Below are positions 3,426 to 58,430 of a DNA stretch of 64,000 bases, one piece after another. The notes under the pieces are model-generated. The model was not told the origin of the DNA and did no database searches. It saw only the letters and a list, made by a program, of their open reading frames with translations. The first letter of the stretch is position 1, and each line of letters opens with the position of its first letter. The position numbers were made by a program, and so were the translations under genes. The stretch is from Microbacteriaceae bacterium (GTDB lineage Bacteria > Actinomycetota > Actinomycetes > Actinomycetales > Microbacteriaceae), in NCBI GenBank assembly GCA_025463565.1, contig JAODAT010000075.1, positions 1 through 64,000 of the forward strand. Reading direction: 5' to 3'.

Positions 3426-3833
3426 CTAGAACTCGTCGCTCGCTGCGGCCTCACGGATGGCCGACAGCAGGCCCTCCGGTGGCAGATCTTTGTAGAGCAC
3501 CGCGAATACCCCGACCGTGGCGGCTTCGGCAATGTGATCCTCCACGTCGATCGCGGTCATCAGGATCACCCGCGGAGCCCGGCCGAGCTCGCGGACCGCG
3601 GCGTCGGTGGCGAGCCGTGCGGCCGCGACGATCCCGTTCATCCTGGGCATCTGGATGTCCATCAGCACGACATCCGCCACGGTGCTGCGCGCGAGGGCGA
3701 GCGCCTGGCCGCCGTCGCTGGCCTCGCCGACCACGGTCATGTCGCGCTGGGCGTCAACAATCATCCGGATGCCCTGCCGAAGCAGCGGCTGGTCGTCGGC
3801 GATCGCGACGCGGATCGGGCCTTTGCGCGCCAC
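3426..3833 (-). CDS. Receiver-only response regulator (no output domain)
   Basis: A 135-residue protein consisting solely of a CheY-like receiver. It has the acidic pocket DD (residues 14-15), the phospho-acceptor Asp in 'VLMDIQMP', a Thr in 'VILMTAID' and the conserved Lys in 'VLYKDLPP'. NarL-type regulators continue for about 80 residues with a LuxR helix-turn-helix, but this frame stops right after the receiver. It starts at a GTG just downstream of the sensor-like gene, so the two are an operon. It may act through protein-protein interaction or be a vestigial regulator. The absence of an HTH is seen directly. Confidence 0.85.
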   Translation of the reverse strand: MARKGPIRVAIADDQPLLRQGIRMIVDAQRDMTVVGEASDGGQALALARSTVADVVLMDIQMPRMNGIVAAARLATDAAVRELGRAPRVILMTAIDVEDHIAEAATVGVFAVLYKDLPPEGLLSAIREAAASDEF

Positions 3834-3836
3834 GAC

Positions 3837-4736
3837 TCAGGAACCGAGGTTGACGCCGTGAACGCCGTTGTCGTACCGCAGCGCGGGGAACATCGCAGAG
3901 ACCGAGAAACCCACCCCGGGCACCGCGTAGGCGTTGAAGATGCCGCCGTACAGCTCGGTGCGGTCGCGCATCTCGCTGATGCCGCGCCCGCTCACCACCT
4001 CGGTGAGCGCGTTGAGGTCTTCGTCGATCGTGTACGCCCGCTGTTGCGCGGCCTCGTTCGGGTCGAGTCCCTGCCTGCGGGCGGCCATCCGCGCGCCGTC
4101 ATCGTCGACAAGCACCTGCAGGCCCTCCTCGGTCCAGGTGAACGACACCTTCGCGTGTGCGCCGTCACCGCCGAACTTGAGCGCGTTGGTCAGCGCCTCC
4201 TGAAGGATGCGGAAAATGGCCAGCTCCGCGCCCTCCTGCAGGTCGAAGCGTTCGCCGCTCTCGACGAATTCGACCTCGAGCCCCGCATCCCGCATCACCT
4301 TGAACAGGTCGCGCGCGGTCTTCAGTCTCGGCTGCGGGGATGCCGCGGCCTCACCGTCGCGCACGATGGTCATGATGCGACGGAGGTCGGCGAGAGCCGC
4401 CCGGCCCATCTCGGCGATCACGACCGTTGCGCGAGTGGCAGCATCTCGGTCGGACTTGGCGGCATACTGAGCGCCGTCGGCCTGGCTGATGATGACGGAG
4501 ACGGTGTGCACTGCCACCTCACCGAGCTCGCGCACGATGCGCAGCCGGCCGAGCTCCTCCTGCAGCGAGAGCTCCAGTTCGAGGGCGTCACGCTGGGCGC
4601 TGACCCTGGCACCGAGCTGGCGGCTTCTGGCACGGGCGGATGATAGCCAGAGCACGAGGAAGAGGATGGCCGCAACGAGCAGAACGACAGCCGCGATTGC
4701 GATCGGCAGAGCATAGGCGGTCAGCCAGGCGTCCAT
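3837..4736 (-). CDS. Histidine-kinase-like protein lacking the phospho-acceptor histidine
   Basis: A 299-residue protein with one N-terminal membrane helix (about residues 8-30), a short coiled region, a HisKA_3-like dimerisation helix and a HATPase_c domain. The dimerisation helix reads RELGEVAVHTVSVIISQADGAQYAA. The intact kinase at 45225 reads ARDMHDVVAHSLAVVIAQADGARYAA at the same place, so the phospho-accepting His is Gly here. The N-box (ILQEALTNALKF) and a glycine-rich 'GRGISEMRDR' motif remain, with an insert of about 35 residues between the ATP-binding motifs. ATG 4736 is chosen over 4748 because GGAGGGG precedes it. It is followed four bases later by the receiver-only gene. Confidence 0.82.
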   Translation of the reverse strand: MDAWLTAYALPIAIAAVVLLVAAILFLVLWLSSARARSRQLGARVSAQRDALELELSLQEELGRLRIVRELGEVAVHTVSVIISQADGAQYAAKSDRDAATRATVVIAEMGRAALADLRRIMTIVRDGEAAASPQPRLKTARDLFKVMRDAGLEVEFVESGERFDLQEGAELAIFRILQEALTNALKFGGDGAHAKVSFTWTEEGLQVLVDDDGARMAARRQGLDPNEAAQQRAYTIDEDLNALTEVVSGRGISEMRDRTELYGGIFNAYAVPGVGFSVSAMFPALRYDNGVHGVNLGS

Positions 4737-4802
4737 GGTCCCCTCCATCTATGTCCAGAGTCGAGGGTACCCCGTTAAGCGGATCGAGCTGCGCGAGGCA
4801 AA

Positions 4803-4869
4803 GCGGGTCGAGCTCGTCGAGACCTCCCGAACGAATAACGTCGGTGAGGTCTCGACGAGCTCGACCCGC
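4803..4869. repeat. REP-like palindrome (24-bp arms, 19-bp loop)
   Basis: Arms 4803-4826 and 4846-4869 are exact reverse complements, containing GTCGAGCTCGTCGAGACC. It sits between the SHOCT gene and the sensor-like gene, both on the minus strand, and would form a very stable hairpin. Related half-copies appear at 27131-27156 and, more diverged, at about 62494-62518. Confidence 0.85.
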
Positions 4870-4874
4870 CAGTG

Positions 4875-5171
4875 TTACTGGCGGTTCGCGCGCAGCACCT
4901 CGAGGCGAGCGCGGTATTCCTTCTCGTCGATGTCACCGTTGGCGAAGCGCTCGGCGAGCGTCGACTCGGCACCGCGTGCGGCGCCCCAGCCGGCGAAGCC
5001 GGGGTGTCCGCCGTTCATGGCCCAGTTACGACGCCAGCGGCGACGGCCGAGGCCGACGAAGAGCGCGATGACGACGATCCAGAACAGCGGGATGAGGAGG
5101 AACAGGAACCCGAATCCGGGGCCGCCCATGGGGCCACCGAAGTGATGCACGAGAGCGAGTGATGCGAGCAC
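4875..5171 (-). CDS. SHOCT-domain small membrane protein
   Basis: A 98-residue protein. One hydrophobic segment (FGFLFLLIPLFWIVVIALFVGL) is followed by a basic stretch (RRRWRRNW) and a C-terminal SHOCT motif (LAERFANGDIDEKEYRARLEVL). SHOCT is a short oligomerisation or recruitment motif at the C-terminus of many bacterial membrane proteins; its exact role is unknown. The stop lies five bases from the REP-like palindrome. The GTG start is the best available. A nested hairpin at 5188-5217 lies in its leader. Confidence 0.8.
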   Translation of the reverse strand: MLASLALVHHFGGPMGGPGFGFLFLLIPLFWIVVIALFVGLGRRRWRRNWAMNGGHPGFAGWGAARGAESTLAERFANGDIDEKEYRARLEVLRANRQ

Positions 5172-5320: not shown

Positions 5321-5986
5321 CTACTGCTCGAACCCCGCGCGTACGAGACCGGTCTCATAGGCGACCACCACGAGCTGCACGCGGTCGCGAGCGACCAGTT
5401 TCGACATGATGCGAGACACGTGGGTTTTGGCCGTGAGGGGGCTGAGGAAGAGTTTGCGACCGATCTCGTCGTTGGTGAGGCCGTGGCCGACGAGACCGAG
5501 AACCTCGCGCTCACGCTCGGTCAGCACGTCTAGCTGGCGGGTGTCCGGTGACTCGCGAAGAGCGCCCGCCACCCGCTCCAGTAGGCGTTTGGTGACCCCG
5601 GGCGACAGCAACGCCTCTCCGCCGGCCACGACCCGCACCGCGCGGATCAGCTCCACCGGCTCGGTGTCTTTCACCAGGAACCCGCTCGCACCCGCGCGAA
5701 TGGCCTGCGCGACATACTCGTCCAGTTCGAAGGTCGTCACGATCACGATGTGCGTTCCAGCCAGGGCCGGGTTGGCCACGATCTGCTCGGTGGCCCAGAG
5801 CCCGTCCCCATCGGGCATGCGGATGTCCATGAGCACGACATCCGGGCGCTCGCGGGTGACCAGGGCGACCGCCTCTGCACCCGTTCCGGCCTCGCCGACG
5901 ATCTCGAGATCCGGTTCGGCCTCCAGCAGAGAGCGGAATCCGGCACGGATCAGCTGCTGGTCGTCGGCGATGGCTACGCGGATCAT
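5321..5986 (-). CDS. NarL/FixJ-family response regulator
   Basis: A 221-residue two-domain regulator. The receiver has DD near residues 8-9, the phospho-acceptor in 'VVLMDIRMP', a Thr and a Lys (FLVKD). The C-terminal LuxR-type HTH is LTEREREVLGLVGHGLTNDEIGRKLFLSPLTAKTHVSRIMSKL. It is the DNA-binding partner of the kinase encoded 14 bp upstream. ATG 5986 (MIRVAIADD) is preferred to the track start at 6031 because it has the family N-terminus and a GGAGAACC ribosome-binding site inside the kinase stop region. Confidence 0.94.
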   Translation of the reverse strand: MIRVAIADDQQLIRAGFRSLLEAEPDLEIVGEAGTGAEAVALVTRERPDVVLMDIRMPDGDGLWATEQIVANPALAGTHIVIVTTFELDEYVAQAIRAGASGFLVKDTEPVELIRAVRVVAGGEALLSPGVTKRLLERVAGALRESPDTRQLDVLTEREREVLGLVGHGLTNDEIGRKLFLSPLTAKTHVSRIMSKLVARDRVQLVVVAYETGLVRAGFEQ

Positions 5987-5999
5987 TGTGGGTTCTCCA

Positions 6000-7250
6000 T
6001 CAGTCGCCGACCTTCGCCGGGATGCGGGCACTCACCCGAAAACCAACGCCGCCGGGCACCGGACCGGCCTCGAGGCTGCCGCCGAGAAGTTCCGCGCGCT
6101 CGTGCATGCCGAGCAGGCCGCGACCGTCGGAGCGCGACGGGCCACCGCCCGAGCCGTTGTCGGTGATGGTGATCACGTAGTCGTCGGCGGACCGGCCGGC
6201 GTTCACGGTGACCTCGGTCGCCTTGGCGTGCCGCAGCACGTTGGTCAGCGACTCCTGGGCGATTCGGTACAGCGCGAGCTGCGTGGCCGCGGGCGGCGGA
6301 GTAGAAATGCTGTTCTCCAGGTGCACCTCGATGCCCTGGGCTTCGATGGATGCCGCGAGCCCGGCCAGCCGCGACAGGTCCGGTTCCGGCACGAGCGGCG
6401 CGCTCGGGTCGGATCCGCCCTCGGCCCGCAGTATCCCAAGCACGGAGCGCACCTCGTCCAGCGCCGTCTTCGAGGTGTCTTTGATGCTGGCCAGGGCATC
6501 CTTCGCCTTCTGCGGCTGCGCGTCCATCAGGTGCAGGCCCACGCCCGCCTGCACATTGATCTGGCTGAGCGAGTGCGCGAGCACGTCGTGCAGCTCGCGG
6601 GCGATGCGCACGCGTTCGGCCTGCACCTCGGACTGCTTGCGCTCGGCATACCTGCGGGAGAACTCGGCGTAGTTCTCGCGACGGGATCGCACGGCCTCGC
6701 CGATGCCCATGAGGATGAGGATGCCGAGCGTGATTCCCGCCACCCGGCCGGGCTGAAGGTCGATGCCCATTACCAGGCTGACCGCGAGGGTCAGCACCCA
6801 CGCGGCGGCGATCGAGATCCACGCCCAGACTCGGGCTCCCCGAATGATCGCTCCGACGATGGCGAACGCGAGTGCGATGTAGGGCGCCCGCCCGTCGTCG
6901 TTGAAGGCGAGAAGGTCGATCGCGCCGGCCGCGGCGCAGATCGCGACAACGGGACCGGGAAACCGGCGAGCGAAGATGAGCGCAACCGGTCCGAGAAGCG
7001 TGAGAGCGAGGTCGGCGATGGTGACCGGAAGCGGCGTCGTGCGGATGACGTTCTGCACGCCTACTCCGGGGTGAACGCGTACGAAAACGCCGGGGAGCTG
7101 GATGACGAGCGAAATGAATACGGGAAGCCACAGCCGCGCGCGTTTGTTGCCCTCGCGCGCGACCTCACGTCGCGCCATCGCCTGCTCGACCCAGGGGTCG
7201 TTCCAGCGGTGCTGCCAACGCTCGCGCGCGAAACGACCGTGGGGTGGCAT
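6000..7250 (-). CDS. Sensor histidine kinase (HisKA_3/NarX type)
   Basis: A 416-residue membrane kinase. The N-terminal half has about five membrane helices (residues ~40-190). The HisKA_3 helix has the phospho-acceptor His in 'IARELHDVLAHSLSQINVQAG', followed by HATPase_c with 'ESLTNVLRHAKA', 'TDNGSGGG' and 'GRGLLGMHERAELLGG'. The membrane part has no recognised sensor domain, so the signal is unknown. ATG 7250 lies six bases after TACGAT, so the operon mRNA may be leaderless. Its partner regulator follows directly. Confidence 0.93.
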   Translation of the reverse strand: MPPHGRFARERWQHRWNDPWVEQAMARREVAREGNKRARLWLPVFISLVIQLPGVFVRVHPGVGVQNVIRTTPLPVTIADLALTLLGPVALIFARRFPGPVVAICAAAGAIDLLAFNDDGRAPYIALAFAIVGAIIRGARVWAWISIAAAWVLTLAVSLVMGIDLQPGRVAGITLGILILMGIGEAVRSRRENYAEFSRRYAERKQSEVQAERVRIARELHDVLAHSLSQINVQAGVGLHLMDAQPQKAKDALASIKDTSKTALDEVRSVLGILRAEGGSDPSAPLVPEPDLSRLAGLAASIEAQGIEVHLENSISTPPPAATQLALYRIAQESLTNVLRHAKATEVTVNAGRSADDYVITITDNGSGGGPSRSDGRGLLGMHERAELLGGSLEAGPVPGGVGFRVSARIPAKVGD

Positions 7251-12188: not shown

Positions 12189-12268
12189 GGAAATTCAGGA
12201 CTTTGGTTCGAGAACCGCCCTTGGAGGAATCAGCCCAGCCGGAACCGTGACCAAAGTCCTGAATTTCC
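12189..12268. repeat. Inverted-repeat element copy 2 (44-bp interior)
   Basis: Arms 12189-12206 and 12251-12268 are perfect complements. The left flank CTGCTTTCGG mirrors the right flanks of copies 1 and 4, so the pairing can extend outward. It lies 15 bp beyond the stop of the SnoaL gene and upstream of dnaG. Confidence 0.95.
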
Positions 12269-12743: not shown

Positions 12744-12835
12744 GGAAATTCAGGACTTTGGTTTCGCGCAGGCGCGCGCGGTCGCGTATCTGCGGGGGCT
12801 GCCGAACCGGCACCGCGCCAAAGTCCTGAATTTCC
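12744..12835. repeat. Inverted-repeat element copy 3 (56-bp interior)
   Basis: Arms 12744-12761 and 12818-12835 are perfect complements with a 56-bp GC-rich interior containing GCCG-AAC-CGGC. It lies 16 bp beyond the dgt stop and upstream of the SnoaL gene, forming a bracket with copy 2. Confidence 0.95.
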
Positions 12836-18765: not shown

Positions 18766-19817
18766 CCCTGTGTCAACGCGCCTCCGGCATCCGTATTCCC
18801 ACCCCGTTCGGGTTGCCCTTTCGGTTGCCCTTTCGGATGCCCTTTCGGAAATTCAGGACTTTGGCGCTGAAGTCGCCTTTTGAGGCGCTTGGTTCCGGGG
18901 GCTGTCACGTCTGCCGCGCGCCAAAGTCCTGAATTTCCGAAAGCAGCGGGACGGGTGTCGACATGGGTGGCGACCGCGGTCTCGATCGCCCGGAGCACGC
19001 GAGGCCAGTCGTCGAAGACGGCCCGCGCACTCGGACGGATGCAGTGCAGCCGCTCGATCGTGATGTCGAGGTCTTTGGAGCGGTCCTCCTCGAACCTGTC
19101 CCAGTGGAAGCGTTCGCCGTCCGTCTCGACGCCGACGCAGCGATCCACCTCGAGGTCGATGTGCTCGAGGTCACCGAGCGGCCGCTGTGACTCGACGTGA
19201 TGTCCGCGCAGGCAAAGGCGGGTTCGGGACAGGCTCTCGGGCAGCGAGTCGCATTTCTCGTCAACCCAGTCGCGAAAGCGCCTGAGCTCGGCCGGCAGCG
19301 CCAGCAGGATCGACTCGAAATCCATCCTGTCGATCACCCCATTGCGCAGCGCCCAGTCAAGGGCCGCGATCGCCTGCTCGAACGGCTCGTCGAGCGCAAC
19401 GCGATACAGGGCGTCGCGGATGTCGACAGCCCAGGCGGTGCCGCGGCCCGCGACCCCGGCGTCGTCCCAGTGGAGCACCGCGGGGTCAGAAGTCCCGGCG
19501 AACCGCACCCGGCGGTTGAACTGCGACCTCAGTCGCGCCGCGTTGTCGTGCACGGAAACGTGCAGCGGATGCGTGCCCAACACCCAGCCGCCGGCCTGCG
19601 CGACGGCGGAGACGCCGGTCAACCGGCCGCCCACCCGCACAGCGCGCACCCTCGGGTCCATCGGCGGGAGGGTCGTGTACCAACCCTGGCGTGCGCGAAT
19701 TACTTCGCCATTGCGCACCGCGGAGGTGAGGTGATGATCGCGCGCGCCTCGGCGCACGAGCTGGCGCTTCTGGGCGATGCCGCCGAGCGAGGTGACGATG
19801 GATGCGATGTCGGGCAT
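18762..19817 (-). CDS. AbiEi-like HTH plus DUF559 nuclease-fold protein, 3' end formed by a repeat element
   Basis: 351 residues. The N-terminus (1-55: 'IASIVTSLGGIAQKRQLVRRGARDHHLTSAVRNGEVIRARQGWYTTL') is the winged-helix domain of type IV toxin-antitoxin AbiEi antitoxins. Residues ~205-290 ('DLEVDRCVGVETDGERFHWDRFEEDRSKDLDITIERLHCIRPSARAVFDDW') match DUF559, a Vsr-like PD-(D/E)xK fold. The last ~60 residues come from repeat copy 4 read in frame (FGNSGLW...QSPEFPK) and a GHPKGQPKGQP repeat, so the original stop was probably lost by element insertion. Copies 4 and 5 flank the gene. The role may be defence-related but is unproven; no toxin gene is adjacent. Confidence 0.75.
   Translation of the reverse strand: MPDIASIVTSLGGIAQKRQLVRRGARDHHLTSAVRNGEVIRARQGWYTTLPPMDPRVRAVRVGGRLTGVSAVAQAGGWVLGTHPLHVSVHDNAARLRSQFNRRVRFAGTSDPAVLHWDDAGVAGRGTAWAVDIRDALYRVALDEPFEQAIAALDWALRNGVIDRMDFESILLALPAELRRFRDWVDEKCDSLPESLSRTRLCLRGHHVESQRPLGDLEHIDLEVDRCVGVETDGERFHWDRFEEDRSKDLDITIERLHCIRPSARAVFDDWPRVLRAIETAVATHVDTRPAAFGNSGLWRAADVTAPGTKRLKRRLQRQSPEFPKGHPKGQPKGQPERGGNTDAGGALTQG
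18847..18938. repeat. Inverted-repeat element copy 4 (56-bp interior), inside an ORF 3' end
   Basis: Arms 18847-18864 and 18921-18938 are perfect complements, extended inward by CGC/GCG. The interior holds CGCCT-TTTG-AGGCG. The preceding bases repeat CCCTTTCGG three times in tandem. The copy is in frame with the DUF559 gene. Confidence 0.95.
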
Positions 19818-19926: not shown

Positions 19927-20018
19927 GGAAATTCAGGACAATGGCGCGCACCCGCGCCGCCGAAGTCCGTTAATACTGGCCAGGCAGAGAGACCCCGTGA
20001 CCGAAGTCCTGAATTTCC
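19927..20018. repeat. Inverted-repeat element copy 5 (56-bp interior, variant arms)
   Basis: Left arm 19927-19944 is GGAAATTCAGGACAATGG and right arm 20001-20018 is CCGAAGTCCTGAATTTCC, so the inner three positions of the stem are mismatched. It lies 27 bp beyond the glyS stop and upstream of the DUF559 gene. Confidence 0.93.
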
Positions 20019-21504: not shown

Positions 21505-21585
21505 GGAAATTCAGGACTTTGGCGCGGACGCCGTGACCAGTCCCGCGTGTCGCCCGCGGCATCCGCGCCAAAGTCCTGAATTTCC
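21505..21585. repeat. Inverted-repeat element copy 6 (45-bp interior)
   Basis: Arms 21505-21522 and 21568-21585 are perfect complements. Pairing continues inward as CGCGGA/TCCGCG, making the longest inner stem of all copies. It lies 15 bp beyond the stop of the aminotransferase gene and upstream of glyS. Confidence 0.95.
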
Positions 21586-30820: not shown

Positions 30821-30912
30821 GGAAATTCAGGACTTTGGCTCGAGGGCAGACTCTGCGTCCGCCTGTTTTCGGGACCTGCGTACTTGGTTCACGACCAAAG
30901 TCCTGAATTTCC
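30821..30912. repeat. Inverted-repeat element copy 7 (56-bp interior)
   Basis: Arms 30821-30838 and 30895-30912 are perfect complements. The copy starts 22 bp after the stop of the NAD-binding gene, and its right flank is CGAAGGTG. It is the first of two copies 67 bp apart between convergent genes. Confidence 0.95.
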
Positions 30913-30979: not shown

Positions 30980-31059
30980 GGAAATTCAGGACTTTGGCGC
31001 GCCCGAAACGCGGCTGAGCCCAAAATGGGCACACGGGATGACCAAAGTCCTGAATTTCC
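30980..31059. repeat. Inverted-repeat element copy 8 (44-bp interior)
   Basis: Arms 30980-30997 and 31042-31059 are perfect complements. The interior carries GCCCA-AAA-TGGGC. It lies 16 bp beyond the leuA stop. Copies 7 and 8 share the left flank pattern GAG(C/T)TGC and the right flank CGAAGGTG but have unrelated interiors. Confidence 0.95.
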
Positions 31060-42245: not shown

Positions 42246-42360
42246 GGAAATTCAGGACAATGGCGCGACCGCCACCTTTGGAAATTCAGGACAATGGCGC
42301 AGCCGCACCAGGGACACGCCGACGCAGACACCACCGGCGTGACCAAAGTCCTGAATTTCC
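42246..42360. repeat. Inverted-repeat element copy 9 with a duplicated left arm (45-bp interior)
   Basis: Two left arms of the ACAATGG variant (42246-42263 and 42280-42297) are 34 bp apart, followed by one right arm 42343-42360 of the standard sequence. The inner pair gives a 45-bp interior, with two mismatched inner positions in the stem. It lies 18 bp beyond the FtsX permease stop. Confidence 0.93.
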
Positions 42361-44589: not shown

Positions 44590-45228
44590 CTAGTTCAACC
44601 CGTGCTCGTACGCGAACACGACCAGCTGCACGCGATCCCTGAGCCCCAGCTTGCCGAGCACGCGGCTGATGTGGGTCTTCACCGTGGCCTCGCTGAGAAA
44701 CTCGCTGGCGGCGATCTCCGCGTTGCTCAAACCTCGCGCTGCCAGGTGGAAGATCTCCTTCTCGCGAGCGGTCAGCTCGCCGAATACCGCAGGCGCCTCG
44801 CGTGGCGCGGTGCCGGCGAAATGCTCGAACAGTTCACGGGTCGCGGATGCCGCGAACACAGTTGTACCGGCGTGCACCGTGCGGATGGCGGCCAGCAGGA
44901 ATTCCGGGTCGGCATCCTTCAGCACGAACCCGCTCGCCCCGCCGCGGATCGCTCGGGCGGCGGCCTCATCGAGATCGAAGGTGGTCAGCACGATCACTCG
45001 CGGAGGGTTTGGGGCTGCGGTGATCTCGACGGTGGCCGCGATGCCATCCATCACCGGCATCCGGATGTCCATGAGCACGACATCGGGCCGCGTCTCGGCG
45101 ACCATGCCCACGGCGTCCATCCCATTGCCGGCTTCACCCACGAAGGCGAGGTCGGCCTGGGACTCGACCAGCATGCGAATGCCCGCCCGGAACAGGGCCT
45201 GGTCGTCGACCAGCGCAACCCGGATCAC
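44590..45228 (-). CDS. NarL/FixJ-family response regulator
   Basis: 212 residues. Receiver 'VIRVALVDDQALFRAGIRML', phospho-acceptor in 'VVLMDIRMP', Thr and Lys (FVLKDADPE), then a LuxR HTH (ELTAREKEIFHLAARGLSNAEIAASEFLSEATVKTHISRVLGKL). The track merges it with an out-of-frame upstream stretch; GTG 45228 overlaps the kinase stop (GTGA) and gives the family N-terminus. It probably controls the ABC/FtsX genes downstream. Confidence 0.94.
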   Translation of the reverse strand: MIRVALVDDQALFRAGIRMLVESQADLAFVGEAGNGMDAVGMVAETRPDVVLMDIRMPVMDGIAATVEITAAPNPPRVIVLTTFDLDEAAARAIRGGASGFVLKDADPEFLLAAIRTVHAGTTVFAASATRELFEHFAGTAPREAPAVFGELTAREKEIFHLAARGLSNAEIAASEFLSEATVKTHISRVLGKLGLRDRVQLVVFAYEHGLN

Positions 45229-46361
45229 GACGGCACCCTTGCCGTAACGACCCAGGAGTCGCCGACAGCTCCGGCCTCGAACGCTCCACCGACGAGGGCG
45301 GCCCGCTCCCGCATTCCGATCACACCGTGGCCACCACTGTTCGACGCCGAGTCGCCGATCGGGTTGGAGATCACGACCGACACCGGGTCGGACCACTCGA
45401 ACGCAACCGTGACGGGCCGCCCGACGGCGCCGTGCCGAAGCGCATTCGTCAACGCCTCCTGCACGATGCGATACAGCGCCAGCTGCTGGCCGCTCGCCAG
45501 AGTTCCCGGCGAACCCGTGTCGGTGCGTTGCACATCCACTCCGGAGCTGCGGAACTGGTCGACCAGCCGGTCGAGGTCGACGAGTGCCGGCTGCGGTCCG
45601 TCGCCCTGGCTGTGTCTCAGCTGGGTCAGCAGCAGGCGCACGTCGCCGAGAGCCTCCCGGGCGGTCGCGGAGATCGTGGTGAGGGCCGTCTCGACGGCCG
45701 CCGGGTCCTTCGCCGCCGCATAGCGGGCGCCATCGGCCTGCGCGATCACCACGGCGAGCGAGTGGGCGACGACGTCGTGCATGTCGCGGGCGATGCGGTT
45801 GCGTTCCTGCTCGACCACGACATCCTTCTCGGCCAGCGCCTGCGCCCGGCGGCTGTCGCGCGCCCGCCGGTAGGTGCGCACGAGTTGCCCGATCGTCCAG
45901 GACAGGCCGAGCACGGCGAGCAGCCCGAAGAAGGCGATGACGAACGACCGGATCGCATCCGAAACGTTCGGATAGGCGAAGCCGTACTCGCCGAAGAACG
46001 GCAGGATGACGAGGTAGAGCTCTGCCACGAGAGAGCCAACCACTGCCGACGCCAGCCCGACCCAGCGAACCAGCCGCCCGCCGTAGGCCGCGGTGCAGTA
46101 CAGGACGCCGAGTACCGCCACGTCGACGAAGGCCGGTGCGTTCACCCGGAACAGCATCTGCACTATCGCGCCCACCCAGGCCAGCACGAGCGCGAGACAG
46201 GGGCTGAACCGCCTGATGGCCAGCGCGATCGTCATCACGACGAGAACGCCGATCGACGCCCAATTCTCATCCTTGGCCTGGATGGCGTACCCGACCAGCA
46301 GGAACACGAGCGCGATGATGACGTCGGCAGCGAGCTGCGGACGGGTCAACGAGCGGAACAT
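45225..46361 (-). CDS. Sensor histidine kinase (HisKA_3 type)
   Basis: 378 residues. Four to five N-terminal membrane helices (~10-150), HisKA_3 with the phospho-acceptor in 'RIARDMHDVVAHSLAVVIAQADGARYAA', then HATPase_c ('IVQEALTNALRHGA', 'SNPIGDSASNSGGHGVIGMRERAALVGG'). The classic DxGxG motif is replaced by 'NPIGDSASNSGGHG', a known NarL-kinase variation. GAGGG precedes the ATG. It heads the kinase-regulator-ATPase-permease operon. Confidence 0.93.
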   Translation of the reverse strand: MFRSLTRPQLAADVIIALVFLLVGYAIQAKDENWASIGVLVVMTIALAIRRFSPCLALVLAWVGAIVQMLFRVNAPAFVDVAVLGVLYCTAAYGGRLVRWVGLASAVVGSLVAELYLVILPFFGEYGFAYPNVSDAIRSFVIAFFGLLAVLGLSWTIGQLVRTYRRARDSRRAQALAEKDVVVEQERNRIARDMHDVVAHSLAVVIAQADGARYAAAKDPAAVETALTTISATAREALGDVRLLLTQLRHSQGDGPQPALVDLDRLVDQFRSSGVDVQRTDTGSPGTLASGQQLALYRIVQEALTNALRHGAVGRPVTVAFEWSDPVSVVISNPIGDSASNSGGHGVIGMRERAALVGGAFEAGAVGDSWVVTARVPS

Positions 46362-51223: not shown

Positions 51224-51315
51224 GGAAATTCAGGACTTTGGTCATGCGAGTTGAGCAAGGTTGCCGACAACGCGGGATGTCCGGTGCGCTGCTTTGACCA
51301 TTGTCCTGAATTTCC
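51224..51315. repeat. Inverted-repeat element copy 10 (56-bp interior, variant right arm)
   Basis: Left arm 51224-51241 is standard; right arm 51298-51315 is CCATTGTCCTGAATTTCC, so two inner positions are mismatched. It separates dnaJ (stop 35 bp away) from rsmE within an otherwise tight operon. Confidence 0.93.
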
Positions 51316-58338: not shown

Positions 58339-58430
58339 GGAAATTCAGGACTTTGGTCGAGTCCCGAAAGCCGGATGCCCGGCTTCCCGGGTCGCCTGGA
58401 AATCGCGAGTGACCAAAGTCCTGAATTTCC
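58339..58430. repeat. Inverted-repeat element copy 11 (56-bp interior)
   Basis: Arms 58339-58356 and 58413-58430 are perfect complements, extended by TC/GA. The interior contains AAGCCGG-ATGC-CCGGCTT, the strongest internal hairpin of the family. It lies 61 bp beyond the TM2 gene stop. Confidence 0.95.

Follow-up and report, generated by a model that had tools for sequence, protein, structure and literature searches.

The 64,000-nucleotide stretch analysed here (the window) encodes HKx, a histidine kinase relative without its phospho-acceptor histidine, and REC, a bare receiver domain, as adjacent genes (Table 1). HKx shows no sign of decay. It has lost the acceptor histidine with both fold and gene under selection and, by sequence, appears to belong to the known class of pseudo-histidine kinases. 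To our knowledge, this class comprises a handful of cases, of which DivL is the best known. The window protein may be a kinase-dead HisKA_3 protein that is kept as a phosphatase, or phospho-reader, of REC; this is the explanation that we favour, although tentatively and at a little under an even chance.

Table 1. Features of the HKx-REC locus and of the repeats in the window.
Feature	Position	Strand	Basis
REC, single-domain receiver, 135 aa	3426..3833	-	ORF list, Pfam, orthologues
REC Lys115 codon, conserved active-site Lys	3489..3491	-	sequence
REC phospho-acceptor Asp59 codon	3657..3659	-	sequence
HKx, 303 aa, ATG start	3837..4748	-	ORF list, Pfam, AlphaFold, orthologues
HKx C-terminal tail YDNGVHGVNL, conserved	3846..3875	-	alignment, AlphaFold, genome pattern search
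HKx G2 box GRG, residues 254-256, 3' of family-specific ATP-lid insert	3981..3989	-	
HKx G1 box DDDG, residues 215-218	4095..4106	-	
HKx N-box Asn188	4185..4187	-	
HKx codon 81, His at +5 (HisKA_3 phosphatase position)	4506..4508	-	
HKx codon 77, Glu at +1	4518..4520	-	
HKx codon 76, GGT (Gly), acceptor site; His in most orthologues	4521..4523	-	
Palindrome pair GGTCTCGACGAGCTCGACC	4806-4866		
Small membrane protein, SHOCT-like end (read from translation)	4875..5171	-	ORF list, orthologous loci
Full-length LuxR/NarL-type response regulator of neighbouring intact two-component system	5321..6031	-	Pfam, loci
Intact HisKA_3 kinase (RELHDVLAH) of neighbouring two-component system	6000..7250	-	ORF list, Pfam
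Intact paralogue with RDMHDVVAH	45225-46361	-	
Inverted repeats with arms CGGAAATTCAGGACTTTGGTC	118-194, 12190-12267, 12745-12834, 18848-18937, 19928-20017, 21506-21584, 30822-30911, 30981-31058, about 42247-42359, 51225-51314, 58340-58429		

HKx consists of one membrane helix followed by a HisKA_3 DHp domain (Pfam, 26.8 bits; gathering cut-off 24) and a HATPase_c domain (33.6 bits; gathering cut-off 26.4). The stretch around the acceptor site reads RELGEVAVH, against RDMHDVVAH in the intact paralogue, and the codon for Gly76 is two base changes away from any His codon. The N, G1 and G2 ATP-binding boxes are all present. The initial annotation was therefore correct in reporting a missing phospho-acceptor and retained ATP-binding motifs. 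HKx also carries the HisKA_3 phosphatase signature of the NarX/DesK type, an acidic residue at +1 and Gln or His at +5 relative to the acceptor (Glu77 and His81). His at +5 is presumably a phosphatase residue like Gln (DxxxQ/H).

The AlphaFold model of HKx, built from 17 sequences, is of modest overall confidence (mean pLDDT 71.7, pTM 0.46). In it the N-terminal membrane helix runs into the DHp domain, continuing as a long coiled coil, and the ATPase fold follows. The protein had been called a sensor; its kinase-like character holds, but neither Pfam nor the model revealed a recognisable sensor domain. The Foldseek matches that rank highest come from DesK, among them the H188V and H188E variants and the phosphatase complex 7SSJ. 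The conserved C-terminal tail has pLDDT values below 50 and is probably a disordered peptide that requires a partner. A genome-wide pattern search for the sequence encoding this tail gave a single match, the HKx gene itself. GC content by codon position is 0.72/0.45/0.86 in HKx and 0.76/0.45/0.88 in REC, in line with the neighbouring genes.

REC starts at a GTG codon that is separated from the HKx TGA by a 3 bp gap (GTC). It contains one Response_reg domain and nothing beyond, as Pfam reports it, with DD at residues 12-13, Asp59 and Lys115, has the Asp/Thr/Lys active site, and is thus a single-domain response regulator; the bare receiver with its Asp had likewise been recognised from the letters. 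Of 400 Microbacteriaceae genomes, 24 contain a REC orthologue (25 matches, E-value: ≤1.4e-41), and each of these genes starts no more than 45 bp beyond the 3' end of HKx. No output domain or HTH was seen in the loci read in these 24 genomes, and the 20 aligned rows all carry the Asp and the Lys. Because the receiver is bare in every orthologue found and always lies 3' of HKx, REC is not a truncated regulator, and no full-length form from which it could have decayed was found among these genomes. A decayed full-length regulator was ruled out on the same grounds. Fusion of HKx to REC, suspected from long open frames, was also rejected, as the 20 REC loci sampled first have the two as separate genes, mostly with overlapping frames. 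REC is best taken as an old single-domain partner of HKx that has been dropped in many lineages, including most of the window genus. Two REC copies (G238:C7:16869-17252 and G331:C16:28749-29141) contain an in-frame stop and are possible recent pseudogenes.

The HKx family was seen in Microbacteriaceae alone. An orthologue is present in all 13 genomes of the window genus and, at an E-value of 1e-40 or below, in 157 of 400 genomes of the family (40 of 85 genera), a count in which a few of the weakest matches may be ordinary kinases. The gene is nearly always single-copy; named relatives that bear it include Lacisediminihabitans changchengi and L. profunda, and it is found even in genomes of 1.2-1.4 Mb. 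A search at the level of the order, beyond Microbacteriaceae, returned ordinary kinases only, most of them aligning short of the lid insert and tail. The locus is syntenic. On one side the order is glycosyltransferase, EamA permease, peptide deformylase, azlCD (some loci; a putative identity read from translations), REC (some loci) and HKx. Beyond HKx lie the SHOCT-like protein, which is the next upstream gene in many orthologous loci, a NarL-type regulator, a kinase or a 2-hydroxyacid dehydrogenase. The window comes from a draft assembly (162 contigs, 88% complete, 3.1 Mb), and no second strain of its species was found. A search of the available literature combining Microbacteriaceae with the conserved His gave no match.

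Two kinds of repeat occur in the window. About eleven inverted-repeat elements with arms CGGAAATTCAGGACTTTGGTC and a variable middle of 40-60 bases are present in the window; in the draft genome, matches to CGGAAATTCAGGACTTTGGTC are confined to the window contig (its first 58.4 kb) and contig C121. A variant of this repeat in L. changchengi (G001) forms a cluster at C1:589,000-653,000, close to the HKx locus at 679,000. These elements are a conserved, locally clustered hairpin family. The interval that separates HKx from the SHOCT-like gene contains the palindrome pair GGTCTCGACGAGCTCGACC. With approximately 203 matches genome-wide (≤2 mismatches, both strands), this pair is an abundant dispersed intergenic repeat.

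Loss of the acceptor histidine is recurrent in the HKx family. In an initial set of 100 members, the acceptor site shows H (61), Q (17), N (9), G (4), E (3), L (2), D (2), F (1) and a gap (1), so that seven kinds of residue replace His. After deduplication and the addition of further loci, His is present in 73 of 111 HKx proteins and absent from 38. At least 12 changes at this site are required on a 93-row tree and at least 14 on a 111-row tree, both being quick-search trees built with the acceptor column masked. Gly occurs at three places on the tree (the window, G246 (L137) and genus g56). Members without His mostly keep the ATP-binding boxes (N-box Asn in 33/36, G1 Gly in 33/36, G2 in 28-33/36). 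The NG dipeptide of the tail is present in 75 of 92 members, and the smallest genomes, like several further lineages, have lost the tail. In genus g46 (L107, L108 and L153), the His is missing from HKx along with the N box, G1 and G2, and the protein keeps the tail HHNGVHGVDLA (omega 0.25-0.29, indicating purifying selection). In genus g11 (L087, L088, L148 and L149; genomes of 1.2-1.4 Mb), the acceptor residue is Asn, and the regulator that follows HKx keeps the receiver Asp, has seemingly lost the conserved Lys and in most cases has a LuxR-like end. This pair seems to be a pseudokinase adjoining a pseudo-receiver in streamlined genomes.

The initial annotation had offered joint decay of the two genes as one explanation, and this was not borne out. 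Both ORFs are intact, and neither frameshifts, stops nor relaxed selection was found. Relative to the His-bearing sister, HKx has an omega of 0.27 and REC one of 0.34, compared with 0.32 for a His/His pair of like distance (NG86; the high GC content of these genomes makes dS too low). The end branch of the window HKx (0.17) is as long as that of the sister (0.16), and pairwise dN/dS values for His-less pairs (0.005-0.42) overlap those for His pairs (0.04-0.32). The check for purifying selection that had been proposed thus came out in favour of maintenance. Alignment of the orthologues gave a divided answer: absence of the HTH is conserved, but the Gly is not, since L. changchengi (L033) keeps His and the Gly of the window is lineage-specific. 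A close relative with both an intact His and a full-length regulator would, as had been stated, identify a recent pseudogene pair; L033 supplies the former, but its regulator is equally bare.

An association was observed between REC and the +5 position of HKx. His occupies this position in all 26 REC-linked HKx proteins, including both with Gly at the acceptor site, and the +1 residue is acidic in all 19 REC-linked proteins tested. In HKx proteins without REC, which are the majority of the family, the +5 residue is His in 34/85 (40%), Gln in 13/85 and another residue in 38/85. Only 3 of 79 comparably variable columns are invariant in the REC-linked set: 81, 91 (in the lower DHp helix) and 146 (in the linker). 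A two-state simulation on the tree reproduced the invariance of column 81 in 3 of 578 conditioned runs, a figure to be read with the facts that the association was spotted post hoc in the same data, that REC-linked rows are less diverged generally and that sign tests on independent pairs, of which there were too few, did not reach significance. The acceptor His itself, present in 24 of 26 REC-linked proteins, is not unusual by the column-invariance measure.

The HisKA_3 literature bears on this pattern. As described there, the acceptor His of NarX is dispensable for dephosphorylation, the key part in this reaction is played by the residue located one turn lower (PMC5231405 citing Huynh 2010; PMC3510030), and the phosphatase role at +5 is demonstrated for Gln (PMC5231405, PMC3510030). 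The DesK variant H188V has been termed phosphatase-trapped (PMC5231405). Taken together with this literature, the conservation of +5 alongside REC makes a phosphatase, or at least a receiver-facing, role the preferred one for the window pair. Phosphatase activity cannot explain the family as a whole, since many HKx proteins occur with neither His/Gln at +5 nor REC.

The proposed model for the HKx-REC pair is as follows. The two genes would form a translationally close operon pair descended from an ancestral kinase-receiver couple. Its sequence shows that HKx of the window lineage is unable to autophosphorylate on the usual His and that it retains the dimer/phosphotransfer helices, the ATP site and the acidic +1/His +5 pair. 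Asp59 of REC would be phosphorylated by another kinase, the one at 6000..7250 being a possible donor, or by a small phospho-donor. Nucleotide and membrane state would set the conformation of HKx, and removal of the His may lock it in a phosphatase-like state, as in DesK H188V. HKx would then strip the phosphate from REC~P or, at minimum, bind REC~P specifically. REC, as it has no DNA-binding domain, would act by protein-protein contact.

Several other explanations were weighed against this model. HKx might bind REC~P and relay this state to another protein, perhaps through the tail, neither adding nor removing phosphate, as the pseudo-histidine kinase DivL, which has neither kinase nor phosphatase activity, binds the single-domain receiver DivK~P (PMC4211667). 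The tail, conserved yet of low confidence in the model and encoded once in the window genome, suits such a relay, as do positions 91 and 146, which are likewise invariant with REC. This explanation is unlikely, although it deserves serious attention: by itself it leaves the invariance of the phosphatase position unexplained, the tail is not restricted to REC-bearing loci, and DivL is an alphaproteobacterial multi-PAS protein rather than a HisKA_3 protein. Somewhat more doubtful is a family-wide scaffold function, in which a membrane dimer makes the NGVHGV tail and the lid insert available to a partner, with catalysis and ATP binding optional and REC an accessory in some lineages. The genus g46 proteins, which keep tail and purifying selection after loss of His, N-box Asn, G1 Gly and G2 Gly, argue for it, as do the persistence of HKx in the 1.2-1.4 Mb genomes and the absence of REC beside most HKx genes. 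The tail is, however, missing from the smallest genomes and several other lineages, and the ATP boxes and REC are intact in the window, so the window HKx need not be a pure scaffold.

HKx could also pair with an intact HisKA_3 kinase, such as the one at 6000-7250, and alter its output or trans-phosphorylate its His. The retained ATP-binding boxes would be consistent with this, an intact HisKA_3 system adjoins HKx in many loci, and Corynebacterium ChrS and HrrS heterodimerise, with a ChrS pseudokinase modifying signalling (PMC9491836). Such a heterodimer is improbable given an identity of approximately 31% between HKx and the neighbouring kinase and the absence of the neighbouring system from many HKx loci. 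Recent decay, with the loss of His as the onset of pseudogenisation and REC next, is less probable again. It would accord with the His retained by the nearest relative (L033), the lack of REC in most of the genus, the interrupted REC copies of G238 and G331, and the far more frequent absence of His from proteins without REC (34/73) than with REC (2/19). This last difference has a raw Fisher p of 0.004, but sign tests on independent pairs are not significant, and because these pairs are too few to decide, no statistical tie of His loss to REC loss is claimed. Against decay stand the intact ORFs, omega below 1 and unlengthened branch, the retention of all REC catalytic residues and the invariant HKx positions, and the at least 12-14 parallel losses of His with long survival. 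That HKx is an active kinase autophosphorylating on His81 is scarcely credible. His81 is invariant wherever REC occurs, but +5 is rotated by approximately 140 degrees around the helix relative to the acceptor side, both His residues are present in 24 of 26 REC-linked proteins, and +5 is a known phosphatase position (PMC5231405). A non-canonical module, the other explanation in the initial annotation (a phosphatase, decoy or allosteric sensor), is thus supported as a class, and that annotation stands in part.

For the family as a whole, the DHp/ATPase fold and the NGVHGV(N/D)L tail could carry the function, with histidine phosphorylation dispensable and lineages moving, each on its own, from kinase through receiver phosphatase to ATP-free scaffold; this scheme is possible, but it is held with less assurance than the phosphatase model for the window pair. 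If it is true, the HKx family preserves successive stages of pseudokinase evolution as a natural series. One syntenic family that combines at least 12 parallel losses with intact sister proteins and a partner of one domain makes the order in which parts are lost testable, and could show what persists once the kinase reaction is gone. The label "sensor histidine kinase" is wrong for roughly one in three of its members.

By analogy, DesK H188V and DivL-DivK appear to be the closest precedents for the window pair. DesK of the DesK-DesR system (Bacillus subtilis) shares the HisKA_3 and HATPase_c core of HKx and provides its best structural matches, and removal of its His gives a phosphatase state (PMC5231405). 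Unlike HKx, DesK naturally bears the His, is bifunctional and has a DNA-binding regulator, H188V being man-made, whereas HKx has one membrane helix, the lid insert and the conserved tail. DivL of Caulobacter is a natural pseudo-histidine kinase that acts with a bare receiver (PMC4211667), an architecture to which that of HKx and the adjacent REC is similar. In DivL the acceptor site holds Tyr, PAS domains are present and the DHp domain is of a different class; the protein acts on CckA, whereas HKx is HisKA_3 by Pfam. The ChrS pseudokinase of Corynebacterium glutamicum is also actinobacterial and still affects signalling (PMC9491836), but arose by a laboratory-evolution frameshift in the catalytic/ATPase domain and retains the acceptor His. 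The bacteriophytochrome DrBphP resembles the proposed HKx as a histidine-kinase relative with ATP-dependent phosphatase activity only (PMC8292422); it differs in being a light-sensing protein of the HisKA class with DrRR as its target, and loss of its acceptor His is not reported. Finally, the C-terminal tail of WalK is disordered and conserved, resembling the conserved and probably disordered tail of HKx, and binds the regulator (PMC9087282), although its W-acidic motif consists of Trp and acids rather than NGVHGV(N/D)L.
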